A stretch of 20,053 nucleotides of DNA from a virus. Within the stretch, counting starts at the first letter, position 1. The number at the start of each line of letters is the position of its first letter. Under the pieces are notes generated by a model. It saw only the letters and a program-made list of their open reading frames with translations, did no database searches and was not told the DNA's origin. The translations under genes were made by a program, and so were the position numbers. Positions 4,037 to 20,053 of this stretch are shown here, piece by piece. The DNA is taken from positions 1 to 20,053 of IMG/VR virus record IMGVR_UViG_3300020056_000212. The stretch is one strand, 5' to 3'.

Positions 4037-6046
4037 ATCCATCAAGATAAACGTCATCTACCTGCAGTATATCCAGAACGTGCGGATCTTAAGGGTGAAG
4101 CAATGAAACTTGCAAACATGATTGCGGATGCTGCAGATGATGTAGATCCATCCAAGATCCCCGCAAGAGTTGCACCAGATACTTCTTGGACTCCACAGAA
4201 CTATATTGCATCTAAAACATTGATCCAAGACGAATCAGAAACTCTTTCCAAACATGTTATTGAATATGTTGGACGTGAGTGGAATGGATTGTCCTTCCCA
4301 CGTGCTAAGTGTCGTCGTGACATGGGCTTCTTGGTTGATGCTGCATCACATGATGTTCAGTACGAAACAAACTATGCATCTCGAATTGCTGCGCAAATTT
4401 ACTTTGAAAATGGCGTCAGTGTCCTTCCTGTAGATACTCGCAGACAGACTGCAGATGTTTATCGCACAATGAAATTGTTGATGTCTGATATCGTTCAAGA
4501 GATCGATACAACTAACACAACAATCACTTCTACTGCACAAGACATCTCAGGTACACCTGCGACTGCAACAGAAGGTGCAGAAGTTGTATCTCTGATTGGT
4601 ATCGTAGAAGATGTGATCCGTGAAGATAGTCTTGCCCCAATCCCAACACTGCAGTCTCCAAATACTGCATGGGTTGACAGTGAAGTAGTAACTGCATTTG
4701 GTGAGATTGAAGACAATACAGTTCAACTTGCAGATGACATGATCCACTTCATCAACACTGAGTTTGATGTACTTGACTATAACAAGTCTAAGTGTCGTCG
4801 TGATGTTGGTTATCTGGTAGATGCATTCTCTTATGACTTGAACTACGGTGGTAACACTGCATCTCGTTGGAACGCAGAGTTCTACTTCTGGAACTCAGTA
4901 TATCGTATCCCAGAAGATCAACGTGTTGCAACTGCGAAGTCTTATCGTCATCTTGGTAAGATTTGTGCAGATATTGTTCAAGGTAAGTATGATGGTCAAA
5001 AAATTAAGTCTGAAACTGCGACTGAGGTCGAAGCAGCAAAAGTTGTCGGACTTGCAAATATGTTCTATCTAACTCAGATAAATAAAGATACAAAAGAACT
5101 ACAAAAACTTGATGAACCAGATTATGGTTGGGTTCAAAAACCCTTTAGAGATGCAGCAGATATCTTGCTATCAAAACGTGGTCCTTTGCAGTATGATGTT
5201 GTTAGATTTGTTAATGCAGAATATAAATTTGTTGACATTAACTTGACTAGACGTGATGCGGGCAACTTGTTGCAGACGATTGTGAATGATGTTAAATTCG
5301 TTAATCCGAATACAGGTCAGAGAGGGTCTACAAAAGCGACTAGAACATTCTCGCAGTCTCTATTTGACCAAAAAGGACAACACGTGTTCCCAGTATTCAA
5401 CCCACAGACACAAGGGTTGATCTTCAAAGGAACAGTCCCAAGTATTTCTGCTCGTAATGATTTGCAGACTAATCCAAATGTGACCTTGAAAAAGAATCAC
5501 GCATATATTGTTTCTGATGATGTAAATATCAACTTCTACGCAGGAACTATATACTATTGGAATGGAAGTGCATGGGTTGATGATGGTCCAAACAATACGG
5601 ATCTTCTATATGCGTTCTACGCATCATGGGATAAGATGAGAGACTTTATTATTGCGAACTATTCACCAGATGCAGAGCATAGTGCAATGATTACGCTTCT
5701 ATTTGATGAATGTCTGAAAGACAACGTCTTGAAACCAGATGTGTTGACATTCGGTTCACTTGTTGAATCAATTGCGCACCAGTTTAACGGTGGTGCTGCA
5801 GGTGTTAACAGAACTGCGTTGCCACTGAACTTTAGAAACCTTGGTCCTGCGACTTCTGCGATTTCTTCGGTTCTTTCAGAAGACGGTGGACGTGTAAGAT
5901 GGTCGGGTGCTGATGAATTGAACAACCAGTACTTCGCAAGAGGTTTGAGAATTAACGGTAGAACAGGTCGAATTGAAGGTAGACCATTTACCTCTTCGGT
6001 TCGTAAACTCGCAAGACGTGCTTCGAACTCTAGAGCCGTAGTATAA
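1..6046 (+). CDS. Giant modular virion structural protein, 5'-truncated by window edge
   Basis: The reading frame is open from base 2 to the TAA at 6044-6046, about 2014 residues. The ATG at 11 is not a credible start, because the codons at its left (I-E-L) continue a repeat module whose other copies are complete (compare W-F-E-E-E-S-I-T-F-S-C near 2042-2075). Two module families are visible: a beta-rich module A with the signature 'ESITFSC...HPR..DP...HTFVSA' (four copies) and a helical-looking module B with 'KC.RD.GY.VDA...D...GGN...YF.N.V..LP..QR' (eight clear copies and one degenerate). Between them recur short helices of the type 'V..LI.IV.D.I'. The last 240 residues lack repeats and end in a basic tail (VRKLARRASNSRAVV). 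Proteins with these signatures recur among large unassigned structural proteins of T4-like marine phages (recalled, not searched). A baseplate or tail role is inferred from the fibre genes downstream. Confidence 0.8.
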   Translation, partial: IELMPGSFTFTCGSDNNLQEISHPRPSDPPYRTPLPITAVPDINTIQVQVGVGTGGIHTFIRCADNAVGVMTANVDEVNAAATLQKNRDFLANETVGYLANTYFIYDSEKCERDTGYIIDAVKRDVLTGSNYNAVFNGLAYRSGTVGADNVVNEQLTETVGAYTWLKQQVAVSLSGTSLTRSNDAFDEIIDIITNGSGAAATINFGDSYVSNDALNTRGILQSNKAFLQAEITAWITANYPSLTYDAAKCERDVGYLVDSASFDIQHGSNVASINNARIYFENAVSILPADQRAITAEAFMHIASVAKKLARNETVTPTTGNVETPVTWTNVEYTPIDVNYNPVSGIMNIDLGATHSFSNGDYIIFDPESITLSCGSPAQNIVHPRTTDPAYEKPIKVLASTANTITLDVGDANGYQEEHTFVSATAGAVKKYFSDFMSQRVEDLINIVSDAIELDAPVYPNPVEPNDVGTEFYQTSAKGTIVGGGSTAREGVVKGGSGGVEGAQSGLLSYNVGGPEMEDPTDKFSPFEFGPGETGYASEFQVATGIINGLTEKLQTEITTYINEQYNGIGFVESKCIRDSGYLIDAITEDLLYGGNEATIKAAQAYFINSINLLPDYQYDATKAAFDHLAVSAEKVALEQTVIPHFKQSFTPTDVVYDANNGVMEVTVGSHDLEVGDFVWFEEESITFSCANTDTLVVTNISHPRAAGGAGTPDYAFERPIKVTQTTATTFTVTGFTIPNGYTGSHTFVSADADAVKQVTKNFLKQDKTGTATSVSVGQRIEDLIKIISGVVDDRTDENIPAISGAPEYTPLRTFARDQIHANRKFLIEEVVAYLNDRYFTYDGDKCFRDTGFILDAVKQSGSIAGAQPLIQVGLAYVSGTTGANEVKWAQLSEMVGGLRYIRDQLVEAARTEEIALSPYDDTYIVENNIKANFDTIIAIMTGEVSNPVPVWPSVLQGGDPDGVNARIILQNNRTFLQAEALAWLALNHPSLTFDTAKCTRDVGYFVDAVSWDISQGGNQSSVNTARLYFENAVSVLPVDQREPTRGVFNRLSEIADEIVQNIAVTKTSGNAQNQDTTTTAANAVTGARVSSLMSIVVDAIDENDIDKLPTVVDNYAFAIANNPQDKRMYDLITKKQGAMQGAILNHIAEEYNGLAYNETKCRRDLGHIIDGIAHDMQYDGNSATHKNALAYFENAINVLPMSQRKPTREAFKHLGETIETILMRVDVEPTIQKLTRFTPTTATYNPATGVFVATIGTHQLKVGDAIMFAPESITFSCGVAPAGATVNISHPRATDPFFNKPVVITAVDATTITMNVGAATNYTGVHTFVSAQYDAIVHVEGNFIHQDKRHLPAVYPERADLKGEAMKLANMIADAADDVDPSKIPARVAPDTSWTPQNYIASKTLIQDESETLSKHVIEYVGREWNGLSFPRAKCRRDMGFLVDAASHDVQYETNYASRIAAQIYFENGVSVLPVDTRRQTADVYRTMKLLMSDIVQEIDTTNTTITSTAQDISGTPATATEGAEVVSLIGIVEDVIREDSLAPIPTLQSPNTAWVDSEVVTAFGEIEDNTVQLADDMIHFINTEFDVLDYNKSKCRRDVGYLVDAFSYDLNYGGNTASRWNAEFYFWNSVYRIPEDQRVATAKSYRHLGKICADIVQGKYDGQKIKSETATEVEAAKVVGLANMFYLTQINKDTKELQKLDEPDYGWVQKPFRDAADILLSKRGPLQYDVVRFVNAEYKFVDINLTRRDAGNLLQTIVNDVKFVNPNTGQRGSTKATRTFSQSLFDQKGQHVFPVFNPQTQGLIFKGTVPSISARNDLQTNPNVTLKKNHAYIVSDDVNINFYAGTIYYWNGSAWVDDGPNNTDLLYAFYASWDKMRDFIIANYSPDAEHSAMITLLFDECLKDNVLKPDVLTFGSLVESIAHQFNGGAAGVNRTALPLNFRNLGPATSAISSVLSEDGGRVRWSGADELNNQYFARGLRINGRTGRIEGRPFTSSVRKLARRASNSRAVV
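260..5310 (+). repeat. Module B repeats (KC-RD-GY helical units in the giant structural protein)
   Basis: The K-C-x-R-D codons begin at 329, 746, 1727, 2540, 2996, 3485, 4307 and 4790. A ninth copy reads L-T-R-R-D near 5243 and has lost the cysteine. Each signature follows a helix of the form 'N..FL..E...Y' plus an aromatic loop, and most are followed by 'YF.N.V..LP.DQR..T..AF.HL', so a full unit is roughly 140-160 residues. Spacing is 417-489 bp where two B units adjoin and 813-981 bp in the other three intervals. In two of those three intervals an A module lies between the signatures. These sizes suggest duplication of both B alone and an A+B cassette. Confidence 0.75.
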
Positions 6047-6058: not shown

Positions 6059-6514
6059 ATGTCATTTACACAATATGAAGATGCAAATACTGGTATAACA
6101 GTCATTGTTACCTCTCAGGCGCCCGATGCGTATCCTATTGGTTTCAATAAAGTTTTGACAACGGAATATTTTCCGATTATAACTGTGCCTCAATTTAGAG
6201 TTCCCGAACTTGTGTTTGGTGGTTCTGAAACTATTGAGCCAGGGATTGGGGAAGTTATTTCCCCTCTCATTTTAACCAACACTAGTGCAAATACGGTTTC
6301 AGTTGATGTGCAAATTTACAGATATGATAATTCATTAACATTTGATCTAATTAAACAATTACCAGTGCCCTCATACGATACTATTCCGATTCCTATCAAT
6401 GGTCAATTCTTTGCATCTGGTGATTTGTTACAAGCCAGGTGTAGTGCAAACCTTGCAATTACTGCAACTTTGTCATATACGATAGGTCAATCGGAGGAAT
6501 ACGATGTCGACTAG
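6059..6514 (+). CDS. Small beta-rich virion protein, unassigned
   Basis: This encodes 151 residues, starting 12 bases after the upstream stop behind a good Shine-Dalgarno tract. No signal peptide or membrane segment is visible. The second half has alternating hydrophobic strands with 'SPLILTNTSANTVSVDVQIY', then a proline-rich turn ('PIPINGQFF'), then 'SGDLLQARCSANLAITATLSY'. This order (neutral strand, 'G..L.SGD.L.A..S....V..T.SY') resembles a family of small beta-sandwich proteins found in tail gene clusters of many phages. I recognise the pattern but cannot name a characterised member. It sits between two virion genes and its last 11 bases overlap the collagen-like gene, so a structural, adaptor or decoration role is likely. 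Function remains inferred. Confidence 0.75.
   Translation: MSFTQYEDANTGITVIVTSQAPDAYPIGFNKVLTTEYFPIITVPQFRVPELVFGGSETIEPGIGEVISPLILTNTSANTVSVDVQIYRYDNSLTFDLIKQLPVPSYDTIPIPINGQFFASGDLLQARCSANLAITATLSYTIGQSEEYDVD
6493..6497 (+). promoter_or_regulatory. Ribosome binding site inside the upstream gene
   Basis: GGAGG lies 6 bases before the ATG at 6504, inside the last codons of the preceding gene. It fixes the start of the collagen-like gene upstream of the previous stop (6512-6514) and suggests translational coupling. Confidence 0.75.
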
Positions 6515-9500
6515 GTTTCGCACTTTTACTGGTCGTGGTTACACGATTGGTAATGGTATCCCACAAGATCCAGCGCAGTTAGATCCTGCTGCATTTAAAG
6601 GTTCGGTAATTTACACGATTACCGACGAAATCCGATATTCGGATGGAACGGCATGGTTGCCAGTTGCAGGTGTGCAAGGGGCTGTTGGCATACAAGGAAA
6701 CCAAGGTACACAAGGTGTTCAAGGTAATTATGGACCAGGCTTCACAATCATTGGTTCTGTACCAGATGTAGATGCGGGCGGTGATCCACAAGCAACTCTT
6801 AATACTGCATTCCCATCCGCAAGTGTTGGTGACGGTGTCATCGATGATGCGGATGAAGAACTTTGGATATATGACGGCGTTAACTGGATTAACATTGGTA
6901 CATTTAGAGGTGTACAAGGTTTTCAAGGCGTACAGGGAACACAAGGTACACAGGGTGACTTAGGTGCAAAGGGTGTACAAGGTTTCCGTGGTTTCCGTGG
7001 ATTCCAAGGTCTTCAGGGCGTTCAAGGTACACAGGGTTTCCAAGGTATCCAAGGTGATAAAGGTAACCAAGGTATTCAAGGCGTACAAGGAACCCAAGGT
7101 TTACAAGGCGATCAAGGCACACAAGGTTTACAGGGTCCTCAAGGCCCACAAGGTTTGCAAGGCGTCCAAGGGACCCAAGGACCACAGGGTACGCAGGGTT
7201 TACAAGGTAATCAAGGTACAGATGGTGCATTCGCAGGTCAGGGTGTACAGGGTCCTCAAGGAACGCAAGGCGTGCAGGGAACGCAAGGCGTTCAAGGTAC
7301 TCAGGGCCCACAAGCATTCCAAGGTGTACAAGGTACACAGGGTTGGCAAGGTGAAGCGATCCAAGGTACGCAAGGCGTTCAAGGTACTCAGGGTCCACAG
7401 GGAACCCAAGGTGTTCAAGGTGTCCAAGGCACACAAGGTGTGCAGGGTCGTCAAGGCCCACAAGGTACGACTGGTATTCAAGGTGCGACTGGTTTACAGG
7501 GCGATGGCGGTTCTCAGGGTGTTCAAGGCGTACAGGGTGTGCAAGGCGTTCAAGGACTTCAAGGTTTTGAAGGTTCTTACGGTGGATTGACATTCCAATG
7601 GGAATTGAACCCAACCTCTGGTAATACATTCCCAGGCGTTGGTAAATTTGGTCTGTCTGAAGGAAACACTCCAAGTGCTGCAAACGTTTATGCAGTTGAC
7701 ACAATTTGGTTTGACGATAAACCTTCTGATAGTAACAGAAGACTAGATGATATCTTCAATTATATTGACAGAAATCCAAGTACTCCAAAAGGTCAACTTG
7801 TTATCAGAACTCCACGTGATACTGCAACAAATGACTTCGAAGTTATTATCTACGAAATTAATGACTGGACATGGGCTCCACCAACTGGATATGAAGATAA
7901 TGGTTGGTTTGATGTTACATTCATCGAAAAATCATTCTTGGGTGCGGGCGGCGCAAACACTAACTCTTGGTTAGATGCGACTGCACGATACGGTGACGAA
8001 GCGATTGTTTCTTTCATTCCCGCTGGTCCAGTAGGCGACACTGGTGTTCAAGGTGAAACTGGTATTCAAGGTTTCCAAGGCATTCAAGGTGTGCAGGGAT
8101 GGCAAGGTATTCAAGGCGTCCAAGGCGTTCAAGGCACACAAGGTTTCCAAGGTGTGCAGGGTCAAGCGATCCAAGGTGTACAAGGTATTCAAGGTGGTCA
8201 GGGCACACAAGGTTTCCAAGGCTTCCAAGGTATTCAGGGACAAGAGGGATCTCGTGTCTTTGAAGTTACCAATGTAGGTAATATTGCATATGAAGTAGAC
8301 GGCGTCAACAATCCAACACTACAATTGTTGAGGGGTTTCACATACACGTTTAACGTCAATGCATCTGGTCACCCATTCTACATCAAAACTGCGCCAGGTA
8401 CTGGTACAGGTAACCAATATACTACTGGTGTAACAAACAACGGTGTTGATGTTGGTCTTATCACATTTAGAGTTCCATACAACGCACCAGACACATTATA
8501 CTATCAATGTTCTAACCATGCGGGTATGGTTGGAATTCTTTCAATTTCTGATTTGGGACCACAAGGACCACAAGGACCGCAAGGAACACAGGGGTTCCAA
8601 GGTATTCAAGGTGATTCTGGCGGATTTGGTGGTGCAACCTTCGATTATACATTCGACGGTTCTGGTACAACTGCAATCAATACTGCAGTCGGTGATATCA
8701 GATTCAACAACGCAACTCCTTCTGCAGTTACAGAAATCTATATTGACGAACGTGACGATAACTTTGCAAACCTAGACAACTATTATGCATCTCTTGATAC
8801 TGTAACAGGTCTTGTCAAGGGTACATTGAAGATCATGCGTAAAGCAGATCCAAACAACTTCTTTGTCTTTGATTACGAAGATATTACTGACAGTACTGGT
8901 TACTGGACATTTGAAGTTAATTACCTAACTGGTAATGGTGCTGCATTCAATGATAACGAAGACATCATAATTACGTTCACACGTGGTGGTTCTACTGGTG
9001 CAGGTGTACAGGGTGCGACTGGTGCAGACGGACTTCAAGGTTCTATTGGCGCACAAGGTATTCAAGGTGTGCAGGGTATTGCACAACAAGGTACACAAGG
9101 TGTTCAAGGTATCCAAGGTGGTTTGGGCACACAAGGTTCAAGTGGGACTGGGGTTCAAGGCCCACAAGGTCCACAGGGTGCTGATGGTTTCCAAGGTAGT
9201 GTTGGTTTCCAAGGTCCTTCTGGTCTAGGATCTCAGGGTGTTGCAGGTTTCCAAGGCGCTCGTGGTTTCCAAGGTGATCTTGGTGGTGCTGGTGCGCAAG
9301 GTGGTCTTGGACCACAAGGTATCCAAGGTGTGCAAGGTTTACAGGGCCCGCAAGGTCCAACCGCACAGGGTGCAGGTGGTTTGCCTGGACCGCCCGGCTC
9401 ACAAGGGGTCCAAGGTCCACAAGGTACATCTGGTTTCCAAGGTGCGACTGGATTTGGTAACCAAGGTAACCAAGGTACTCAGGGTATTCAAGGTGTTCAA

Positions 9501-10409
9501 GGTTTCCAAGGCGGCGGTGGCGGCACTGGTATCCAAGGTGTTCAAGGTTATGTTGGTCCACAAGGTACACAAGGTGAAGCAGCTCAAGGTGGATTTGGTG
9601 TACAAGGTATCCAAGGTGTACAAGGTACACAAGGACCAGTATCACAAGGTACTGGCGGTTTGCAAGGTATCCAAGGTCCACAGGGTACTCAGGGTATTCA
9701 AGGTGCTGATGGTACTAATGGAGATGGAATTCAAGGTTTCCAAGGTGTACAAGGTGTTCAGGGGGACGGTGGTTTCCAAGGTCCTGCAGGTACTGGTACA
9801 GATGGTGTTCAAGGACCACGTGGTTTCCAAGGACCAACTGGTGTAGGTCTACAGGGTCCTACAGGTGATGGCGCACAGGGTATCCAAGGTGTTCAAGGTG
9901 TTCAGGGTGATACAGGCGCCACAGGTCCAGCGGGTTCGGGTGCTGATGGTATTCAAGGACCACGTGGTTTCCAAGGTGATATCGGGGAAATTGGTCCACA
10001 AGGTGTTCAAGGTGAAGCAATCCAAGGTGAAATTGGTGCACAAGGTGCAACTGGTTCGATTGGCGCACAAGGTACTGATGGTTTGCAGGGCCCTGCAGGG
10101 CCAGGTAACTCTGCTGCAACTGTTGATGTTGCCAACATATATGGTACTGGTTTAGAATCATCTAATATGTTTGTAACATTTGTGCCTGGCGGTTCTGGTG
10201 CAAGAACTATCTACGCAACGACTGGTCCAAACACTGGTGGCGAACAGAACTTCTTCTATAATACAAATGCGGATACATTATATTTGGAAAATATCACTGC
10301 GGATGGTAACCTCTTTGCAGGGGGTGCATTGATTGGTTCTCATCAAGACCCATCAAACAGAACGTTAATCATCAGAGACTCTGCAGGAACGGTAGTGTGG
10401 GGTACTTAA
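6504..10409 (+). CDS. Collagen-like phage fibre with embedded cupredoxin-like domain
   Basis: This encodes 1301 residues. The order is: residues 1-55, a short head with '[13 protein letters not shown]'; 56-79, a first Gly-X-Y block; 80-135, a spacer ending '[13 protein letters not shown]'; 136-359, collagen block 2; 360-507, globular domain G1; 508-583, block 3; 585-684, cupredoxin-like domain; 685-708, block 4; 709-833, globular domain G2 (related to G1); 834-1201, the long block 5; 1202-1301, a beta-rich C-terminal domain. The Gly-X-Y blocks are dominated by [12 protein letters not shown] and G-P-Q. Such proteins form trimeric rods in phage fibres (family knowledge), and the C-terminal domain may be the trimer cap or receptor-facing tip (inference). 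The gene begins inside its upstream neighbour, which ties it to the same operon. No signal peptide is seen, as expected for a virion protein. Confidence 0.88.
6669..7580 (+). repeat. Collagen-like Gly-X-Gln blocks 1 and 2
   Basis: Block 1 covers 6669-6740. A spacer of about 56 residues follows (6741-6908), which contains an acidic '[14 protein letters not shown]' stretch. Block 2 runs 6909-7580. Glycine occupies every third position and glutamine most Y positions. Block 2 has slips in the register such as 'GAFAGQG', 'GPQAFQG' and 'GEAIQG'. Short units like G-V-Q-G-T-Q recur with synonymous third-base changes, so the DNA repeat is imperfect although the protein repeat is strict. Confidence 0.9.
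7581..8024 (+). other. Globular domain G1 inserted in the collagen-like fibre
   Basis: About 148 residues between collagen-like blocks. It begins 'GGLTFQWEL', contains '[14 protein letters not shown]', a helix '[12 protein letters not shown]', then 'KGQLVIRTP' and '[15 protein letters not shown]', and ends '[11 protein letters not shown]'. The succession of strands matches domain G2 at 8628-9002 (F-x-Y-x-F ... I-Y-I-D-E-R ... L-D-x-Y ... K-G-T-L-K-I ... F-V-F-D-Y-E-D-I-T ... I-I-I-T-F). Modules of this type recur in collagen-like proteins of phages and prophages, to my recollection. Binding specificity is unknown. Confidence 0.7.
8025..8252 (+). repeat. Collagen-like block 3
   Basis: About 25 Gly-X-Y triplets, mostly G-x-Q, with breaks at 'GVQGWQG' (still in register) and 'GQAIQG' (register slip). 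The same 'AIQG' slip occurs in blocks 2 and 5, each time after 'GEA' or 'GQA', which suggests duplicated segments. Confidence 0.85.
8256..8555 (+). other. Cupredoxin-like (type 1 copper) domain within the fibre
   Basis: Residues 585-684 of the collagen-like protein. The domain shows '[14 protein letters not shown]', 'YTFNV', then 'GHPFYIKT' with His623, '[17 protein letters not shown]' and the terminal ligand loop C-S-N-H-A-G-M with Cys669, His672 and Met675. One His after a strand, followed by Cys-x2-His-x2-Met near the C-terminus after a 'YY.C' strand, is the classical cupredoxin type 1 copper ligand pattern (plastocyanin and pseudoazurin group). I see the ligands directly; copper binding is inferred. 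No other cysteine is present in this domain. It is flanked on both sides by Gly-X-Gln triplets, so it would be displayed along a trimeric rod. Confidence 0.75.
8556..8627 (+). repeat. Collagen-like block 4
   Basis: Eight triplets starting with three consecutive G-P-Q and ending G-D-S-G-G-F. It is a short rod or hinge between the cupredoxin-like domain and globular domain G2. Confidence 0.8.
8628..9002 (+). other. Globular domain G2, paralogous to G1
   Basis: About 125 residues containing 'FDYTFDG', '[17 protein letters not shown]', 'LDNYYASLD', '[20 protein letters not shown]', '[12 protein letters not shown]' and '[10 protein letters not shown]'. The same order of strands appears in G1, pointing to an internal duplication. 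The IRFNNAT...IYID and KG.L....DP..F..F signatures are ones I associate with a recurrent insert in phage collagen-like proteins. No catalytic residues are recognisable. Confidence 0.7.
9003..10106 (+). repeat. Collagen-like block 5 (longest)
   Basis: About 368 residues of Gly-X-Y with Gln in most Y positions. Proline in X is more frequent here than in block 2 (G-P-Q, G-P-A, G-P-P-G). Interruptions of the type 'GIAQQG', 'GPTAQG', 'GEAAQG', 'GPVSQG', 'GEAIQG' insert one residue into the triplet register, and several are spaced through the block. A glycine run near 9511-9523 adds flexibility. The block ends 'GPAGPGN' and gives way to the C-terminal domain. Confidence 0.88.
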
Positions 10410-10455: not shown

Positions 10456-10794
10456 ATGGCCTCAACAGCAAACATCTACATAGACAAAGGAACGGATTTT
10501 CGTGTCGAATTAACTTTATTCGATGGTGACGACGATCCGCTTCCAATCTCTGTGCTCGATTTCTTTGCGGATATTCGTAAAGTATATTCAGAGTCCTCTC
10601 CACTAACAAGCTTTACAGTAGAAAAAAGTACTCAGGTTGCGGGTTTGGTTACACTTGTGTTAACTGATACGCAAACAAGAACGTTAAAGCCAGGGAAGTA
10701 CCAATATGATGTGTTGATGCGAAAACAATCTGGGGAAATGTCTAAAATTCTTGAGGGACTTGCTTTTGTTGTAGATACAGTAACAGAGGTCTAG
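10456..10794 (+). CDS. Small tail-adaptor-like beta-sandwich protein
   Basis: This encodes 112 residues. It starts at the second of two close ATGs (10451 is out of frame). The sequence follows a recurring phage pattern: 'YIDKGTDFRVELTLFDGDDDPL', then 'DFFADIRK', a variable loop, 'TSFTVE', 'GLVTLVLTDTQTRTLKPG', 'YQYDVLMRKQSGEM' and 'ILEGLAFVVDTVTEV'. This 'G.D....L.L.D.DG.P....F.A.IR...G.V.L.L...T..L..G.Y.YD......G....LEG.......VT' layout is typical of small beta-sandwich proteins near phage fibre genes, comparable with the N-terminal domain of BppU-type baseplate proteins. The likely role is linking fibre to tail or baseplate, by analogy. Four bases separate it from the giant fibre gene, so the two are co-translated, and the late promoter lies just upstream of both. 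Confidence 0.72.
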   Translation: MASTANIYIDKGTDFRVELTLFDGDDDPLPISVLDFFADIRKVYSESSPLTSFTVEKSTQVAGLVTLVLTDTQTRTLKPGKYQYDVLMRKQSGEMSKILEGLAFVVDTVTEV

Positions 10795-10798
10795 ACGC

Positions 10799-13700
10799 AT
10801 GGCAATTAAAGTCGTAGTAGGTGACTCACCAGAAAGATCCGTCACAACGGTTCTAGAAGGCGAACAAAAACCCCTCATCACCCCAGATTCCGTTACACTT
10901 GGTGTTGATACGGTTGGTCCCTATGTTGCCACGCTCTCTTCTGGTAATGGTGTTATTCTATTTCCAGAAGATGCAAATACTCGCAACATCGAAACTGCAA
11001 ATATTACCATTGTTCACGCAAACACTTCTGGTGAAATTAGCACAAACAATGATGTCTTACAATTTGTAAGAAACGTAGAAATCGATCAGTTCGGTCACGT
11101 TACTGTTTTTGCAGGCACAGAATTCAACCCAGATCAGTTCTACGCATCTAATGGTGTCATTTTCACAAATGATATCACCATTGGTAATACTGTTATTGGT
11201 AACAGTGGAAATACTTTTACACTTGAAGGTCTGACATCACTTATTGTTGGTGAACTGACCTTAGCGAATAATACTATCGCTACAGGCGAAGAACTTGTAT
11301 TCCAAACTGGTGCAAACTCATACATTTCTGTTTCTAATGCACGTATTTCAGATCTTGCAGAACCAGTTGCGAACACCGATGCTGTCACAAAATCGTACAT
11401 CGATACCGCATTGGACAATTTGGAACAGGGTCTTCTATTTGTTGCAGATCCGCAAAGTCCAAATGATGCCACCAACAAACGGTATGTCGACAACCTCGTA
11501 CAAGGTCTAAACGTAAAACCGTCTGCACTCGCTGCGACGACTGGCGATCTTGCAGGTGCATTCAACTCTGCAAATAATACTCTTGTTCTTCCCCCATACA
11601 ATGTAATGAACATCGACGGTGTCACTACATGGGAAATTGGGGATAATATTCTTGTTAAAGATCAGACTAATCCTGCAGAAAATGGTACATATGATGTTAT
11701 TCAATTGGGTAACGCATTTGTTCCATGGGTTCTTAAAAGATCCGAATATGCAAATGAGAGTTCGGAACTGCCAGGCGCATTTGAGTTTGTCGTTGATGGT
11801 ACAGTTAATGGTAACAAAGCATTTGTTGCAACTGTTATAGACGCTGAAACATTTACTATCAACCAAGACGCAGTCACGTGGACTCAGTTCTTCGGTGAAG
11901 GTAACTACTTTGCAGGTAAAGATCTTACACTCGTCAATGGTAGAGAATTTGTTTTAAATTCAAATGTAAATTTGGAAACAATCACGTCTCTTGACTTAGA
12001 GACACTTACAATCGTATCTAATACAGTCGTCATCGACTCAGAAGGTGGACTTGTTCTTCCTGTAGGATCTACAAACGATAGATCTGGTAACATCCAAGGT
12101 ATGATTCGTTATAACACGACTGATGGTCAGTTTGAAGGTTATGACGGTAATGCATGGTCAGGTCTTGGCGGTGTTATCGATGTAGACCAAGACACATATA
12201 TTTCTGCAGAAGATACTGCAGGATCAGACAATGATCAACTAAAATTCTATACTGGTGATGTCAACAGACTGACAATCGATCAATATGCAATCACTGCAAA
12301 CGTCGACATCAATCTAGATACAACTGGTGCACTAACACTTCCAGACGGCACATCTGCACAACGTGATGCAATTCCTCAATTCCGTAGAGGTATGATCCGT
12401 TATAATACTTCAGACGATCAGTTCGAAGGATACAATGGTAATAACTGGCAAGGTCTTGGTGGGGTTGTTGACGTTGATCAAGACACAAAGATTACTGCAG
12501 AATATACGCCAGGCGGAGATCAGGATGAACTGAACTTCTATGCGGGTGGAAACCACGTTGCACAGTTCTATGCAAACAAAGATGTTTACTTCTATGGAAA
12601 CATGGATGTTTCTGGTAACGTTGTTATCGGTGGTAACATCAGACTTGGTGATAACGAGATTGACAACATTGAAGTTGTCGCAGACTTTACATCTAACCTG
12701 TTGCCAAATGACAACGACACATATATGTTGGGTGGTACTGGTAAGAACTGGTACAAACTATTCACAGGTAGAATCGGTCATGACAGTAATGTTGTCATCA
12801 TCGAAACAGAAGGTGCCCTAACACTTCCAGTTGGTTCAACAGCTAAGAGACCACCTGCATACGAAGGTATGATTCGTTTCAATACGGATGACAATCGTTT
12901 TGAAGGATATGATGGAAACATCTGGGCAGGTCTTGCAGGATCAGTTATTGACGTTGATCAGGATACAAAGATCACTGCAGAAACGTCTCCTAATGCAGAC
13001 AATGACCAACTGAACTTCCATACTGCAGGTCATCTAAGACTGACTATTGATGAAGATGGTATCATCAAAGTGCCAGCAGGGAACAATATGTTCCTTGAAG
13101 CGCCTGGTGGTTTTATCAATGTTGGCAATACTATTATAACAAATCTTGCAGACCCTGTCAATGACCAAGATGCAGTTACGAAGTATTATTTGGAAAAAGG
13201 TGGTTTTGCATCCACACTTACTCTAAAAGACAACTCTAATACTCACTTAGTTGCACTTCTACAATCTCCCACGGTGACTGTAGGTAGAGGTCTTGAAGTA
13301 CAGAATGCAAACAGTACTGCATTTGAACTTGCAGTTGATGTGACAGGTGTTCAGCCAGGTATCTACGGTAACGATGGTTATGTTCCTCGTGTTCGTATTA
13401 CAGAAGATGGTCGTATTGACTTTGCGACAGAACTTCCAGTAGAACTTCAGGCGAATGCGATTCCAGACTTTACAGAGGTGTCGATGGACATCACTGGTCT
13501 GATGTTCCGTGACGGTACACACACTGGTGTGTATGTGTACTACGATGACGCTGGTAACACGATCAACATTTCACACAACACGTCTCCTATCACTAATACT
13601 GATAATGCAGATGGTGAGTTTATTCAGAACTTGGAGTTCGATGAATTTGGTCACGTTGTTGTTTTAAATTCTGCAAACTTGGATCTTCAGTATATTCGTA

Positions 13701-16700
13701 CTGATGGTACAATCCCCGCATCCAACACAATTATTGCTCCTCGTTTTGCAGACTCTGCAAACATCGAATACTTTATTGATCCATTTGAAACATCGCAAAT
13801 CAGAAACTTGATTTTGGGTTTTGGTTCTAATACTGCATCTATTGAAATGTCTGATGGTCCATTACCCACAGATAAATCATTCATCTATGCTTCTGCAGGC
13901 GTTATTGGGTTCGTTGATAATTCACTCAATTACTTTGCATCTGCAAACCGTACTACTGGTGACTTCACGGTTACTGGTAACTTGATTGCGGGTGGGTTTG
14001 CAGACTCACAAGATACAAGTTTTGTTATCAACCCTGCAGACATCTCAAACGTAAACAAATTCTACGTTGAAGACCATGCATGGTTTGGATATAACATATC
14101 TCTAAACCAACAAGGTTTCTCTGCAAACAATGGTGTTATCGAATTTGGTGGTGCAAAACTTCGTAACGTTGGTATTCCAGTTGAAGTTCACGATGCAGTT
14201 ACCCTTGGATTTATGCAAGCTGCAATCCAAGGTGGTGAAGGTACAAGTCTTTCTAACACATTTACAATTGACGTTAACGTCGATGGTTCAACTCTTGAAA
14301 TCGTTAACGATATCACTCGTGTTAAAGATGGTGGTATCACTAATGCGAAGATTGCAACACCTTACATTACTATTGCGGGTGAAACTCAAGCAACAATTCC
14401 ACCATTCTTTGTCACTGCAAACCTAACACTATTTGATGGTGATCAGTGGCAAGTAAACGGTACTCTACGTGATGAGACATATTCTTTCACAGAAGAACCA
14501 ACACTTCAAGTTTATATTGGTGATACACTTAATTTTGCAGTAAGTGGTGCAAACACCATTTCACTTTATATTAAAACTTCCGAAACATCTGGTACTGGTG
14601 ATGCGGCATTTGGTGTAACAAACCAAGGTGCAACAGGTGGTGAAACACTTACATTTGTTCCAGATACGGTTGGTACATATTACTATATTGATATTAACAA
14701 TACAGATCGTTCTGGTCAAATTACTGTTTCAGAACAATATACTCCTGCAGAAAATATCAATTTAGGTGAGACACTTACCTTTGCTGCGGGTGAAGGTATC
14801 AACACTGAAGTCACAAACAATACGATCACAATCTCTGCAGAACTTGCTACTGCCTTTGCGTCAAATGACAACAGAGGTATTGCTGCATTTGCGAACGCAG
14901 ACTTTGTAGTGACCAACGGTGTCGTAGAATTTGCAACATCTGGTGTCACTGCAAACACTTACGGTTCTTCTACTGCAATTCCAATTCTGACAATTGACGA
15001 ACATGGTCTTGTCACTCTTGCAAGTACTGCATCAGTTGCAGGCGTCGACGGTGTAAGTTACGAGAATTCGAACAACACAATTACTATCGTTACTGGTGAT
15101 GGTTCTGAGTTCCATATTCAGACAGAGACCACAGTAGAACTTTCTGGTAAAGTAACAGGAACTGCAACCTCTTCAAACGGTACAGTTCAAATTGCAACTG
15201 AACTAGAAGACACTGGTGTCGTTGCAAACACTTACGGTTCGTCTACTGAGATCCCAGTCATCACAATTGATGTTGATGGTAGAATTACTCTTGCAAACAC
15301 TGCATCTGTTGCGGGTGTCGATAGTTTCTCATACGATCCTGCAAACAATACCATCACACTGATTACAGGTGACGGATCAGAGTTCCATATTGCTACTGAA
15401 ACTGCAGTTGAATTAACTGGCAAGGTTACTGGTTCTGCCACTTCTTCAAACGGTACTGTACAAGTAACGACAGAACTTGAAGATACTGGTGTTGCTGCGG
15501 GTACATATGGTTCTGCATCTCAGATCCCAGTGTTTACAGTTGATGACGATGGTCGTATTACTGTTGCAAATACCGCAGCGGTAGGTGGTATCGATGACTT
15601 CTCATATGATGCCGCTAACAATACAATCACATTGTCTTCTGGTGATGGATCAGTATATCATCTAAGAACCGAAACAACTGTAAACCTTCTTGGTGATGTG
15701 ACTGGTACTGCGACATCTTCGAACGGTACAGTCGAAGTCACTGCAGACATCTCAACCACTGGTGTTGTTGCAGGAGTTTATGGTACTGCTTCCCAAATAC
15801 CAATTATCACTGTAGCTGCAGATGGTCGTATCACTACAATGTCCAACACTGCAGTCGCAGGTGTTGATGACTTTGTTTACACTTCTGCAAATAACACACT
15901 AGGAATTTTCACTGGTGACGGATCTGTATTCCTACAGAAGATTGACTCATTTGATGAGACTGTAAACTTTGGTGCAGACATTGATGTCACAGGAAACGTT
16001 ACTGTAAGTGGTACTGTTGACGGACGTGATATTGCGGCAGATGGTGCGAAACTAGACAACATCGAAGCAGGGGCGACAGGGGATCAAACTGCAACAGAGA
16101 TCCTTAATCTTCTTCTGACAGTAGATGGGGATGGATCAGGCCTTGATGCAGACACCGTTGATGGATACTCTGCACAAGAAATCTTAGATGCGTCTGCTAA
16201 CAACGCACAAAACCTTATTGGTGACGGTGAAGTATTCATCTATGCAAACACTGGTGTAACAGTTAATTCGACAAATGTCAACTATAGATTTAACTTAAAC
16301 AGTGCAAACAGTTTTACATTCGATGTTGGTCACGCAGACACTTCTAGTATTGCAAACACAAGTTTGTCACTTCCAAATGTTTTAACTGGTATTACCTTTG
16401 ATGAGTTCGGTCATGCACAAACAACTTCTTCTACGGATCTCGACGGTAGATACTACACTGAAGCAGAGTTGGATGGTGGTCAACTTGACAACCGTTACTA
16501 CACAGAAACTGAACTGGATGCAGGTCAATTAGATAACAGATACTACACTGAAGCAGAGTTGGATGGTGGTCAACTAGATTCACGTTACTTCAATCTGACA
16601 GGTGATACAGTAACTGGTAACTCTACATTTGAACAGAATGTGATAATTGATGGAACAATCAACCGTGATCCTCGTATCACACTATATGGTTTCGTCAACG

Positions 16701-17362
16701 GTTTCACAGATCTAGTAAACCTCGCAAACGGTTCTATGTTCACATCTTCTGATACTGTAATCAGTGTTGGTGATGGTTTGGATATCGTTGGTGGAACGAT
16801 CAATGCGAACGTTGAAATATCTCATACAGATACTTCTAGTCAAGCAAATGTTGCATTCGCAAATACTGCACTTGCACCAGAATTTATCTCTGCAGTTGAC
16901 GTAGATCAGTTTGGTCACGTTGTTGGAGTTTCCAAAGAAGTCAGACTTTATCTTGACCAAGCAACTGCAGATAATAGATATGTAAACGAAACTGGTGATA
17001 CGATGACAGGGAACTTGGAAGTCCAAGCTGTCATCTCACAAGATTATTCTGCATTCCATTCTGAGTCATTAACACTAACAACAACATCTCCAACTGTATT
17101 GTTTAGTTTCGCTCATGCAGATTTTATGGGTGGTGAATTCATTATTACTGGTAAAAATGGAATAAATAAACATATTACAAAAATGTTGATTGTTCATGAT
17201 GGCACTACTGCATCAGCAACAGAGTTTGGTAAGGTGGTGACAAACACTGACCTTGCAACTTACGATGTTATAATTAATGGTAGCGATGTTCAAGTTTTGG
17301 TTACTCCATCACAATCATCATCTACGGAGTTCGTAACCTTTGCAACTCTAATAAAAGATTAA
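10799..17362 (+). CDS. Giant modular tail fibre protein
   Basis: This encodes 2187 residues. The start ATG lies 4 bases after the previous stop, behind AGAGG inside that gene. Recognisable parts in order: an N-terminal region with 'VEIDQFGHV'; 'DAVTKSYID' and 'DATNKRYVD' boundary motifs (about residues 195-235); a common fibre module with 'ILVKDQTNPAENGTYDV' (about 237-370); three 'GMIRYNT..QFEGY.G..W' repeats (from about 417); a 'DAVTKYYLEKGG' boundary; 'LEFDEFGHVVV'; a 'DAVTLGFMQ' boundary; a degenerate cupredoxin-like domain (about 1213-1314); four 91-residue repeats (about 1382-1745); 'DGRDIAADGAKLDNIEAGAT' and 'SGLDADTVDGYSAQEIL'; three YYTE repeats (about 1884-1928); 'DTMTGNLEV'; and a unique C-terminal domain of about 120 residues ending 'FATLIKD'. 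Such motif chains are typical of marine T4-like phage fibres. The C-terminus is the best candidate for receptor contact (inference). Confidence 0.87.
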   Translation: MAIKVVVGDSPERSVTTVLEGEQKPLITPDSVTLGVDTVGPYVATLSSGNGVILFPEDANTRNIETANITIVHANTSGEISTNNDVLQFVRNVEIDQFGHVTVFAGTEFNPDQFYASNGVIFTNDITIGNTVIGNSGNTFTLEGLTSLIVGELTLANNTIATGEELVFQTGANSYISVSNARISDLAEPVANTDAVTKSYIDTALDNLEQGLLFVADPQSPNDATNKRYVDNLVQGLNVKPSALAATTGDLAGAFNSANNTLVLPPYNVMNIDGVTTWEIGDNILVKDQTNPAENGTYDVIQLGNAFVPWVLKRSEYANESSELPGAFEFVVDGTVNGNKAFVATVIDAETFTINQDAVTWTQFFGEGNYFAGKDLTLVNGREFVLNSNVNLETITSLDLETLTIVSNTVVIDSEGGLVLPVGSTNDRSGNIQGMIRYNTTDGQFEGYDGNAWSGLGGVIDVDQDTYISAEDTAGSDNDQLKFYTGDVNRLTIDQYAITANVDINLDTTGALTLPDGTSAQRDAIPQFRRGMIRYNTSDDQFEGYNGNNWQGLGGVVDVDQDTKITAEYTPGGDQDELNFYAGGNHVAQFYANKDVYFYGNMDVSGNVVIGGNIRLGDNEIDNIEVVADFTSNLLPNDNDTYMLGGTGKNWYKLFTGRIGHDSNVVIIETEGALTLPVGSTAKRPPAYEGMIRFNTDDNRFEGYDGNIWAGLAGSVIDVDQDTKITAETSPNADNDQLNFHTAGHLRLTIDEDGIIKVPAGNNMFLEAPGGFINVGNTIITNLADPVNDQDAVTKYYLEKGGFASTLTLKDNSNTHLVALLQSPTVTVGRGLEVQNANSTAFELAVDVTGVQPGIYGNDGYVPRVRITEDGRIDFATELPVELQANAIPDFTEVSMDITGLMFRDGTHTGVYVYYDDAGNTINISHNTSPITNTDNADGEFIQNLEFDEFGHVVVLNSANLDLQYIRTDGTIPASNTIIAPRFADSANIEYFIDPFETSQIRNLILGFGSNTASIEMSDGPLPTDKSFIYASAGVIGFVDNSLNYFASANRTTGDFTVTGNLIAGGFADSQDTSFVINPADISNVNKFYVEDHAWFGYNISLNQQGFSANNGVIEFGGAKLRNVGIPVEVHDAVTLGFMQAAIQGGEGTSLSNTFTIDVNVDGSTLEIVNDITRVKDGGITNAKIATPYITIAGETQATIPPFFVTANLTLFDGDQWQVNGTLRDETYSFTEEPTLQVYIGDTLNFAVSGANTISLYIKTSETSGTGDAAFGVTNQGATGGETLTFVPDTVGTYYYIDINNTDRSGQITVSEQYTPAENINLGETLTFAAGEGINTEVTNNTITISAELATAFASNDNRGIAAFANADFVVTNGVVEFATSGVTANTYGSSTAIPILTIDEHGLVTLASTASVAGVDGVSYENSNNTITIVTGDGSEFHIQTETTVELSGKVTGTATSSNGTVQIATELEDTGVVANTYGSSTEIPVITIDVDGRITLANTASVAGVDSFSYDPANNTITLITGDGSEFHIATETAVELTGKVTGSATSSNGTVQVTTELEDTGVAAGTYGSASQIPVFTVDDDGRITVANTAAVGGIDDFSYDAANNTITLSSGDGSVYHLRTETTVNLLGDVTGTATSSNGTVEVTADISTTGVVAGVYGTASQIPIITVAADGRITTMSNTAVAGVDDFVYTSANNTLGIFTGDGSVFLQKIDSFDETVNFGADIDVTGNVTVSGTVDGRDIAADGAKLDNIEAGATGDQTATEILNLLLTVDGDGSGLDADTVDGYSAQEILDASANNAQNLIGDGEVFIYANTGVTVNSTNVNYRFNLNSANSFTFDVGHADTSSIANTSLSLPNVLTGITFDEFGHAQTTSSTDLDGRYYTEAELDGGQLDNRYYTETELDAGQLDNRYYTEAELDGGQLDSRYFNLTGDTVTGNSTFEQNVIIDGTINRDPRITLYGFVNGFTDLVNLANGSMFTSSDTVISVGDGLDIVGGTINANVEISHTDTSSQANVAFANTALAPEFISAVDVDQFGHVVGVSKEVRLYLDQATADNRYVNETGDTMTGNLEVQAVISQDYSAFHSESLTLTTTSPTVLFSFAHADFMGGEFIITGKNGINKHITKMLIVHDGTTASATEFGKVVTNTDLATYDVIINGSDVQVLVTPSQSSSTEFVTFATLIKD
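12046..13020 (+). repeat. Three GMIRYN fibre repeats
   Basis: The ATG of 'GMIR[YF]N' lies at 12101, 12392 and 12869. Each copy starts with 'L.LP.G[ST]' and a short linker, continues '[DN]..FEGY[DN]GN.W.GL.G', and then 'D[VQ]DQDT.I[ST]AE' followed by 'D[NQ]D[EQ]L.F'. The first two copies are 291 bp apart. The third is 477 bp further on because a stretch with 'NHVAQFYANKDVYFYGNMDVSG' and 'LLPNDNDTYMLGGTGKNWYKLF' is inserted. The W and Y rich core is a common small beta module of phage fibres. Confidence 0.8.
14437..14739 (+). other. Degenerate cupredoxin-like domain without copper ligands
   Basis: About 101 residues of the giant fibre align by eye with the cupredoxin-like domain at 8256-8555: 'PTLQVYIGDTLNFAV' with '[15 protein letters not shown]', 'LYIKT' with 'FYIKT', 'AFGVTNQGATGGETLTFVP' with '[20 protein letters not shown]', and 'TYYYIDINNTDRSGQITVS' with '[18 protein letters not shown]'. 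None of the four ligands is retained: His623 aligns with Ile, Cys669 with Ile, His672 with Asn, and Met675 falls at the Arg/Ser position. The fold is probably kept while metal binding is lost. Confidence 0.6.
14942..16033 (+). repeat. Four tandem 273-bp (91-residue) fibre repeats
   Basis: Equivalent codons (the Ala of 'ANTYGSS', 'AGTYGSA', 'AGVYGTA') fall at 14951, 15224, 15497 and 15770, exactly 273 bp apart each time. A unit reads 'TGV.A.TYG....IP[IV].T[IV]D.DGRIT.A.TA.V.G[VI]D.FSYD.ANNTIT...GDGS.[FY]H..TET.V.L.G.VTGTATSSNGTV.V....'. The second half of the fourth unit diverges and merges into 'VTGNVTVSGTVDGRDI'. The 'TYGS...P.[IV]T[IV]D..G.IT' core is a widespread phage fibre motif. Confidence 0.88.
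16448..16582 (+). repeat. Three tandem 45-bp (15-residue) YYTE repeats
   Basis: Units at 16448-16492, 16493-16537 and 16538-16582 encode R-Y-Y-T-E-[AT]-E-L-D-[GA]-G-Q-L-D-[NS]. Units 1 and 3 share 38 identical bases, while the middle unit differs mainly at synonymous third positions. The motif is known from fibre proteins, usually just before an 'LTGDT.TGN' segment as here. It probably forms a regular trimeric stalk (inference). Confidence 0.88.
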
Positions 17363-17380: not shown

Positions 17381-17388
17381 GGGGAGAG
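17381..17388 (+). promoter_or_regulatory. Ribosome binding site
   Basis: GGGGAGAG is centred about 12 bases before the ATG at 17397. It sits in a 34-base gap and supports this start for the last gene. The gap (17363-17396) contains no exact late promoter octamer and no evident hairpin terminator. Confidence 0.7.
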
Positions 17389-17396
17389 TGAACCGA

Positions 17397-20053
17397 ATGG
17401 CAAACGATAAGAAATTTATAGTCAAAAACGGCCTCCAAACTCTTGGAGACGTACTCATTGGTACGTCTACTGACGATGGTGTTAGTAAACTTCAAGTAGA
17501 TGGTCCTACTCATATTGAGGCCACTCTTCCTTCATATCCTACCTTAAAAGTTACGAACGACTCTGGTTCTGCAGGTGCACCCATCATTCAATTCGTTGGA
17601 CCTTCTGGTGCATTGAATGTTGAGAACCTTGGAACCCTAAACGATTACGGTATCTTTAACTCTACAAATGGTATTGAGTTTCATAACGGTAATGATGGTC
17701 TAGTCTTCAAACAAAACGGTGTTGCAAGACTTTCTATTGAAAATGGTAACACAACTTTCACAGGTTTGTCAACTACAAATATCGAAGGTCGTCGTATTAT
17801 TACGACAGATGACGAAGCACGTAATGGTGGTTCATTCGACGCTGCAACACTTGATGGTTTAGACTCTATCCAGTTTGTTCGTTCTGATGAAGACGATACA
17901 ATGGATGGTTCGTACATTATCACAGGTAACTTGACAGTTTTCGGTACGACGACAACCATCTCTTCTGAAACAGTAACAATCGCAGATAACATTCTATTGT
18001 TGAATAGTAATGTTACAGGTACGCCTTCTGAAAATGCAGGTATTGAAATTGAAAGAGGAACATCTACAAATGTTTCCTTCATTTGGAATGAAGCTGCAGA
18101 CTGGTGGACAATCGGTGATTATGCACTTGAAACAATTGAGATTAGATCAGTTGCTGATAATGATCTTCTTCTTCGTGCTGCAAGTTCAGGTAGTGCAAAT
18201 GTTAACATCACTGGCGGATATGGTACTTCCTACCAAGGTCTAAGATCTGCAAAAGTTGGTGTCGAAGGTTGGGGTGAGATCCTTTACAATAGTGCGACAA
18301 AACTTAAAGGTATCTCTGACGGTATAGAAGCAACCGAAAACCTTGATGTTAAAGGTGATATCACTATTGGAGACAACAATGGTGCTGCACAGATTTTCTT
18401 TGACGGTAGTGGTCTTAATAATACTCTGTATTCAAACAATGGGGAAATTGGTTTCCTCAAACAGAACTTTAACTACGGTGCATATCTAAACTCAGACGAA
18501 GACTGGATTGTATCTGGTAACAATGTTGCACAGGGTAATATTATTTCAGAAGGCGACATCACTGCGTATGATGATATCGTTGCAAACAATAATATCAATG
18601 CAACTAATGGTAATATCACTGCAGATGCGGGTAATATCGCAGCTACTACAGGTAATGTAACTGCAGGAAACAGTATTACTGCACAGAATAACATTACTGC
18701 AACAACTGGTAATATCGATGCGACTGCAGGAAACGTAACTGCAGGGAATGATGTATCAGCAGGTAATGACGTTACCGCTGCAAACGATGTGACTGCAACT
18801 GCAGGTGACGTAACTGCAGGACAAGACGTTATTGCAACACGTGACATCTCTGCAGGTAGAGATGCAAACATCACTGAAGACTTAACTGCGAATAATGCGT
18901 ATATCACCAATGATCTGACCGCTGACGACATTATCTCCCAGACTATCAATGCGAACAGTGCAATCATTGGTGATATCACTGCGAACAATATTGTTGCAGA
19001 TCAGGATATTCGTTCTGGTCGTTTCGTCGACAATGACGATGACACATATTTCTTCGATGGTGATAAAGCGTCTGTTGCGAATACAATCGGTATCGATACT
19101 TACATCTTCCATAATGGTGATACAGACACACGTATGGGATTTGATGGTGCGGATCAAATCAGTTTCCAAACTGGTGGTACAGAAAGATTAAACATTGACA
19201 ACAACTCTGCAGACTTTACTGTAGGAGTTTATGCACCAACATTCTATGATTCAGATGACTCAAACTACTTCGTCAATCCTGCATCTGCGTCGATCATGTC
19301 AAGTATCTACATCGACGACTTTATCTATCATGCGCAATCAATCAATGACTATATGGGATTTGCCGCTGCAAATGATTGGCGAGTTACGATTGGTAGTACA
19401 CTTAAACTGAATGTTACAGATGCAATCACGCAATCTTTCAATAACGTTCGTGCACCAAGATACCTTGGTGCATCTGGCACAACATATTACTTAGACCTAG
19501 ACAACACAGGAAACAATACGTCTCTTGCGGTTGATGGTCGTGTCCAAATTGGTAACGTTACTGATGTTGACAGATGGAACGACAACACTGGTACTGGTGG
19601 TATTTCTCTTGCATCTTACAATGGGTTTGGTGGAAACAACAACCCATCTATCGCCATCTCTGGTGCGAATGGTGCATATGCACTAATGTACATGAACCGT
19701 ATCGATATGGGCAACAACCCATTCGATAACAGTAACAGATATATTCATTTCTATAAAGATGGTTCTCCTGTTCAAAAGATTGCGGGTGACACAACTGGTA
19801 ACCTTAACTTTGTACCAGATTCAGATGCGACTGCAGTTAAGTTCTGGAACGCAAGTGCAGACAATCTATTCACTATTAATGGTGGTGGTGCAGTTGTTGT
19901 CGGTGGTGAATCTGCAACTTATGGAAGTTCAGATGCTACTCCTGTTCTGGGTAGTATTACCAACAATAGACTACATGTAAATGGTTCTATCCAACTTAAT
20001 GGAAACAATGACGCAATCGTATTTGGTCGTGGAACTTCATCATTCCTAAAAGA
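17397..20053 (+). CDS. Second modular tail fibre protein, 3'-truncated by window edge
   Basis: The frame runs from the ATG at 17397 without a stop to the last base (885 complete codons), so the gene continues beyond the window. The N-terminus is 'MANDKKFIVKNGLQTLGD', then 'VLIGTSTDDGVSKLQVDG', a common opening of marine phage fibres. About residues 145-240 carry 'AATLDGLDSIQFVRSDEDDTMDG', 'GNLTVFGTTTTISSETVTIADNILLLN', 'GIEIERGTSTNVSFIWNE' and 'WWTIGD', a module I recognise from many T4-like phage fibres. A short-period tract follows (about 385-540), then 'APTFYDSDDSNYFVNPAS' (near 612-636), another common fibre motif, and beta-rich segments with 'YLDLDNTGNNTSLAVDGRVQIG' and 'ALMYMNRIDMGNNPF'. 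Its receptor-facing end is probably outside the window. It follows the first giant fibre, so the pair may form parts of one appendage or alternative fibres. Confidence 0.85.
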   Translation, partial: MANDKKFIVKNGLQTLGDVLIGTSTDDGVSKLQVDGPTHIEATLPSYPTLKVTNDSGSAGAPIIQFVGPSGALNVENLGTLNDYGIFNSTNGIEFHNGNDGLVFKQNGVARLSIENGNTTFTGLSTTNIEGRRIITTDDEARNGGSFDAATLDGLDSIQFVRSDEDDTMDGSYIITGNLTVFGTTTTISSETVTIADNILLLNSNVTGTPSENAGIEIERGTSTNVSFIWNEAADWWTIGDYALETIEIRSVADNDLLLRAASSGSANVNITGGYGTSYQGLRSAKVGVEGWGEILYNSATKLKGISDGIEATENLDVKGDITIGDNNGAAQIFFDGSGLNNTLYSNNGEIGFLKQNFNYGAYLNSDEDWIVSGNNVAQGNIISEGDITAYDDIVANNNINATNGNITADAGNIAATTGNVTAGNSITAQNNITATTGNIDATAGNVTAGNDVSAGNDVTAANDVTATAGDVTAGQDVIATRDISAGRDANITEDLTANNAYITNDLTADDIISQTINANSAIIGDITANNIVADQDIRSGRFVDNDDDTYFFDGDKASVANTIGIDTYIFHNGDTDTRMGFDGADQISFQTGGTERLNIDNNSADFTVGVYAPTFYDSDDSNYFVNPASASIMSSIYIDDFIYHAQSINDYMGFAAANDWRVTIGSTLKLNVTDAITQSFNNVRAPRYLGASGTTYYLDLDNTGNNTSLAVDGRVQIGNVTDVDRWNDNTGTGGISLASYNGFGGNNNPSIAISGANGAYALMYMNRIDMGNNPFDNSNRYIHFYKDGSPVQKIAGDTTGNLNFVPDSDATAVKFWNASADNLFTINGGGAVVVGGESATYGSSDATPVLGSITNNRLHVNGSIQLNGNNDAIVFGRGTSSFLK
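18550..19020 (+). repeat. Short-period solenoid-like tract in the second fibre
   Basis: About 155 residues with an isoleucine or valine every 6 to 8 positions in units such as 'GNITA', 'GNVTAG', 'NDVSAG', 'NDVTAA', 'GDVTAG', 'RDISAG', followed by longer units ('DLTANNAYITNDLTADDI'). It is almost free of aromatics and charges apart from Asp. The regular hydrophobic spacing with small residues and Asn/Asp between is what beta-helices or intertwined trimeric beta-stalks show. The DNA carries repeated ACTGCAGG strings in the central part. The structure is inferred from periodicity only. Confidence 0.65.

Follow-up and report, generated by a model that had tools for sequence, protein, structure and literature searches.

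A cupredoxin-fold domain without copper ligands, probably inserted as a module into a giant phage fibre protein

The window analyzed here, a whole virus contig of 20,053 bases from IMG/VR that belongs to an aquatic phage, encodes two similar domains in separate fibre genes. One of them, D1, carries the four ligands of a probable copper site, as judged from its residues; the other, D2, carries none of them. This locus raises the question of whether D2 is truly a relative of the copper-type domain, how it reached its fibre, and what became of the ligands. Our preferred reading, to which we assign a probability of about 82%, is that D2, a beta-sandwich of the cupredoxin fold, entered the fibre at one surface loop as an inserted module and has lost its type-1 copper site.

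Position, homology and predicted fold of D2

D2 spans 14411..14740 on the plus strand, as supported by its AlphaFold model, by Foldseek and VIA matches to cupredoxins and by its HMM score. It lies within a giant fibre ORF of 2187 aa from the ORF list (10799..17362, plus strand), which matches PF03906 (phage T7 tail fibre N-terminal domain) above cut-off and also has PHROG virion structural and baseplate matches. The original prediction placed the domain at 14437-14739, which is out of frame by one base and contains 10 stops; read in frame, the stretch becomes 14438-14740, from which the predicted domain extends back to 14411. D1 (8250-8567, plus strand; ligands H41, C87, H90 and M93), identified by alignments, AlphaFold and fold matches, is flanked by collagen-like stretches within a 1301-aa ORF for a collagen-like fibre (6504-10409). 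The two fibre genes are neighbours in a loose sense only, as a small gene (10456-10794) lies between them. Out-of-frame or degenerating sequence was ruled out by the open ORF, a dN/dS of 0.12 and the presence of the sequence on contigs from several metagenomes. No DNA-level relatives were found among annotated phages, and psbA, sought as a pointer to the phage host group, was not matched on any of nine related contigs, all of them fragments. A small preceding ORF had suggested that the D2 host gene is an ortholog of the giant gene of P-HM2; this candidate was rejected, since the P-HM2 gene encodes a subtilisin/Ig protein that matches the D2 host at the domain only.

Several other features of the window were recorded. 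A partial 2014-aa ORF (2-6046) contains many repeats around KCxRDxGYLVDA...YGGN, and its last 414 aa had no tblastn match in the annotated phage collection. The giant fibre carries tandem modules of about 90 aa at 15060-16300 (DGSEFHIxTETTVELxGKVTGxATSSNGTVQ...). The next fibre ORF (17388-20051) has a KKFIVKNGLQ-type N-terminus like that of a 407-aa ORF in L075/L077, which itself has a ligand-bearing cupredoxin domain.

D1 and D2 show 33% identity and have the motifs YIKT and GVTN.G in common. Their Smith-Waterman score is 91, compared with 31 +/- 6 for shuffled sequences, none of 2000 shuffles scoring as high (alignment z = 10). Profile-profile alignment, proposed beforehand as a check, gave a probability of 97% and an E-value of 1e-10 over 80 columns (hhalign, four D2 sequences versus 38 D1-type domains). 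With an HMM built from ligand-bearing domains only, D2 scored 51 bits, the best of 500 shuffles 7.3 bits and its reversed sequence only 2 bits. When the HMM was restricted to D1-type domains, D2 scored 38.5 bits. The PHROG matches of D2 (phrog_27200, E 3e-12; phrog_9158, E 7e-12) fall in the same families as those of D1. By significant profile match and shared motifs, D2 thus fits the phage-fibre cupredoxin-like family (PHROG 677 / 9158 / 27200 module), and its homology to the copper-type domain D1 is confirmed. The likeness had been described as running end to end. This holds for about 80 of the 101-106 residues but not for the first ~20 residues of D2 (WQVNGTLRDETYS), for which another family branch gives a better alignment than D1 does. 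Extending the D2 profile recovered the same seven loci only.

Neither D2 nor D1 matched PF00127 (Copper-bind) or PF13473 (Cupredoxin_1) at E <= 10. A single-domain sequence search of the PDB returned nothing convincing; a profile search of the PDB returned weak but consistent matches to cupredoxins. The AlphaFold2 models reached a pLDDT of 95.6 for D1 and 89.9 for D2, and for both the best Foldseek matches in the PDB were cupredoxins. Structural superposition, the other check proposed for this pair, placed both models in the same register on 2dv6, a Hyphomicrobium nitrite reductase of which the N-terminal cupredoxin domain is the matched part. VIA-align gave a Z of 10.8 for D1 (rmsd 2.3 A, 92 residues, chain 26-137) and 11.7 for D2 (rmsd 1.9 A, 94 residues, chain 25-134). 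D2 is thus predicted to form a Greek-key beta-sandwich over the whole domain. Because the alignment behind the D2 model consists mostly of ligand-bearing rows and may favour the cupredoxin fold, the prediction does not prove the fold independently, although the sequence evidence points the same way. The models support the same fold for D1 and D2.

Ligand positions in D2 and across the family

All four ligand positions are changed in D2, as originally predicted. Numbered from 14411, the family HMM alignment places Ile (I50, 14558..14560) at the first His position, Asp (D94, 14690..14692) at the Cys position and Arg (R100, 14708..14710) at the Met position; the second His position is occupied by Asn (N97, 14699..14701; all on the plus strand), and by Asp in the other D2 orthologs. 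H, C, H and M of D1 are thus I, D, N and R in the window and I, D, D and R in three other distinct sequences, so that all D2 orthologs lack the ligands. D2 does not have the set of a type-1 (blue) copper site (His, Cys, His and an axial Met or substitute), and from the missing ligands we infer that it would bind no type-1 copper. Its dN/dS is 0.118 (window versus L005), with 0.145 and 0.117 for the flanks. This purifying selection, similar to that on the flanks, indicates that D2 is maintained rather than decaying.

Purifying selection would also be expected if D2 had kept or re-evolved metal or ligand binding through other residues and were an active receptor-binding unit, for example through the Asp and Arg that are conserved at the former copper site, or through a calcium or carbohydrate site. 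All four D2 sequences do have Asp in place of the old Cys and Arg in place of the old Met, which leaves room for a binding activity gained there. However, with so few sequences this invariance is weak evidence, the remaining acidic residues of the loop differ between sequences (YYIDINNTDR / YYIDGADTNR), and neither family nor structure matches point to a new site. We consider such a gain unlikely, and favor a domain that lost its copper site and persisted without metal.

A comparison of D1 with D2 had been put forward as a way to see selection on the ligands. Its first half stood, as all 38 aligned D1-type domains have the ligands H41, C87, H90 and M93; a cleaner comparison is nevertheless provided by L146 (731-3862) and its orthologs. 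L146 has three tandem cupredoxin domains, each of them ligand-bearing. Its orthologs, L135 (70% identical over 839 aa) and L167 (61% identical over 1054 aa), have kept the ligands in domain 1 and lost the full set in domains 2 and 3, the first His being the sole ligand kept in domain 2 of L167.

A first census of the family comprised 255 distinct domains, among them 236 HCHM, 9 HCHQ, one HCHL and one HCHA, together with D2 and three other losses. It was biased against ligand-less members, because the search peptide patterns included ligand motifs. The census was therefore enlarged by two scans started from ligand-less domains; the result, which is not a random sample either, contains 322 distinct phage domains with all four positions read, of which 294 have H, C and H and 28 lack the cysteine. 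These 28 include an NSHM/NSYM pair, a separate, well-supported ligand-less clade with Y, S/T/A, Q/E and M/L (L363, L381, L389, L398, L400, L401, L405, L406, L410, L413, L414, L420 and L422), and others. When ligand states were mapped on a family tree, as had been suggested, the ligand label required about 8 changes (7-9 in bootstraps), only 3 of these changes being forced by well-supported branches. Ligand loss is thus recurrent in the phage domain family.

Two further observations concern domain arrays. In the Y, S/T/A, Q/E, M/L clade, a second, partial cupredoxin match sometimes occurs later in the same ORF. In subtilisin-linked ORFs (L118, L134, L140, L141, L151 and others), the axial Met is replaced by Gln (HCHQ) in the C-terminal cupredoxin at about aa 1385-1410, which is consistently the last domain of the array.

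When bacterial and archaeal genomes were scanned, relatives turned up in Bacteroidota, Myxococcales and other MAGs, and all full-coverage domains were HCHM. The phage relative L146 passes the plastocyanin/azurin family PF00127 (32.4 bits versus a cut-off of 21.2 bits). Both results indicate that the ligand-bearing state is likely ancestral. Since HCHM predominates in phages as well as in bacterial relatives, and given the tree, we infer that the ligands would have come first and then been lost. In several cases, phages appear to have kept the cupredoxin fold as a plain building block after loss of the copper site.

Insertion into the fibre and origin of D2

Alignments with the empty sites of L229 and L290 delimit an inserted block of about 120 aa, linkers included (aa 1196-1318; 14384..14752, plus strand). 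L229 and L290 encode two independent fibres that are homologous to the giant ORF to the left and to the right of D2 yet do not contain it: ITFAGE or ITIAGE is followed by a loop of 4-5 residues and then by NVNLGETITF or NVNLGETLTF (e.g. ITIAGE-FGSAD-NVNLGETLTF). Since the flanks are joined directly in these homologous hosts, the ~120-residue block was inserted into one loop. The right flank (14753..14998, plus strand) is a common fibre module (NxxLGETLTFAAGEGINT...) with 232 relatives in viral contigs, most of them without D2; the upstream stretches of other right-flank relatives that were tested gave no significant cupredoxin match. The L290 contig has a D1-type domain in another ORF but an empty D2 site, indicating that D1 and D2 occur independently. 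Moreover, members of the domain family occur in collagen-like fibres, in gp9-type connectors, in subtilisin-like proteins and elsewhere. This spread and the empty-site comparison bear out the earlier proposal that the fold moves as a module between fibre genes.

The same proposal regarded D2 as a sibling of D1. In three trees built without the ligand columns, D1 and D2 fell in different halves of the family, separated by well-supported branches (100/97, 99/100 and 99/98). D2 groups with the domains that follow the subtilisin domain in P-HM1/P-HM2-type proteins (PF00082 in L134), and also with D3, a third domain that has its HCHM ligands intact and lies at the C-terminus of a different large structural protein, in phages that have D1 and D2 (L302 1-1755, minus strand, L303 and L304; regions of G002, G003 and G005). 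As D2 is on a long branch, the trees do not fix its exact nearest relative. In the AU test, a D2+D3 grouping was compatible with the data (p-AU 0.508), and a D1+D2 clade had a log-likelihood 25.8 lower, without formal rejection (p-AU 0.089).

The absence of a formal rejection, the location in neighbouring fibre genes of one phage, the 33% identity and the shared YIKT and GVTN.G could all be accommodated if D2 had arisen within this phage lineage by direct duplication of D1, with a move of 6 kb to the following fibre gene and a later loss of the ligands. The separating branches argue against this, as do the GxxRDxxYS segment and the shorter TxGTYYY turn, which D2 has in common with the other branch, and the presence in the same phages of D3, a ligand-bearing member of that branch. 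We judge direct duplication quite improbable; D2 is probably not a copy of D1. Finally, chance likeness between low-complexity, beta-rich fibre sequences, in which case D2 would not be a cupredoxin, could draw on the lack of any significant Pfam, NCBIfam or PDB sequence match for D2 alone, but this reading is already contradicted by the shuffled and reversed controls, the profile-profile match, the PHROG families common with D1, the confident D2 model and its consistent fold matches, and is extremely improbable.

Possible role and comparison with known systems

According to the preferred reading of an inserted module, the D2 block would have entered a phage fibre protein at a single surface loop, and its type-1 copper site would have been lost after descent from a ligand-bearing state. 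D2 would then be a metal-free beta-sandwich knob, giving bulk, stability or a contact surface to a fibre that is probably trimeric, as phage fibres are. Its most likely function, judging from sequence, is that of a structural or adhesive fibre module that needs no metal. A broader proposal, which we find rather doubtful, is that virion fibres use real copper sites widely and that the site is repeatedly discarded or repurposed, the empty pocket becoming a new binding site (for a receptor, a glycan or another partner) in D2 and other lineages.

The metal discussed so far for marine phage tails and fibres is iron at HxH motifs (PMC11705849). Among the open-access papers searched, we found none joining cupredoxin or blue-copper domains with phage fibres. 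The family offers a comparative system within a single virion domain: a copper site in most members, an axial change (Gln, Leu or Ala) in some, and several losses. The orthologous pairs of L146 with L135 and L167 are natural experiments, and such a system makes the role of copper in marine phage fibres testable.

Among known systems, the D1-type domains of marine phage fibres and of the gp9-type baseplate-wedge tail-fibre connector (PHROG 677, Kyanoviridae) are homologous in fold to D2, and have in common with it YIKT, GVTN.G and a place inside virion fibre or connector proteins. They carry H, C, H and M, whereas D2 has I, D, N and R and sits as an insertion in a loop of a different type of fibre. 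The nearest branch to D2 in the trees is the cupredoxin beside the subtilisin domain of P-HM1/P-HM2-type proteins (PHROG 27200, 9158), with which D2 has GxDRxxxxS and PxTxGTYYY in common; there, however, the ligands are present and the host protein has a Peptidase_S8 domain. The best BFVD matches of D2 include S8/S53 peptidase-domain proteins. Plastocyanin/azurin (PF00127), amicyanin, rusticyanin and the cupredoxin domains of nitrite reductase have their fold in common with D2, which in contrast has no ligand and no PF00127 match. The C-x2-H-x2-M spacing of D1 is presumably that of amicyanin. A cupredoxin fold without copper serves as a binding or structural unit in ephrins and some phytocyanin-like proteins of eukaryotes, but these are cellular proteins, whereas D2 is part of a virion.
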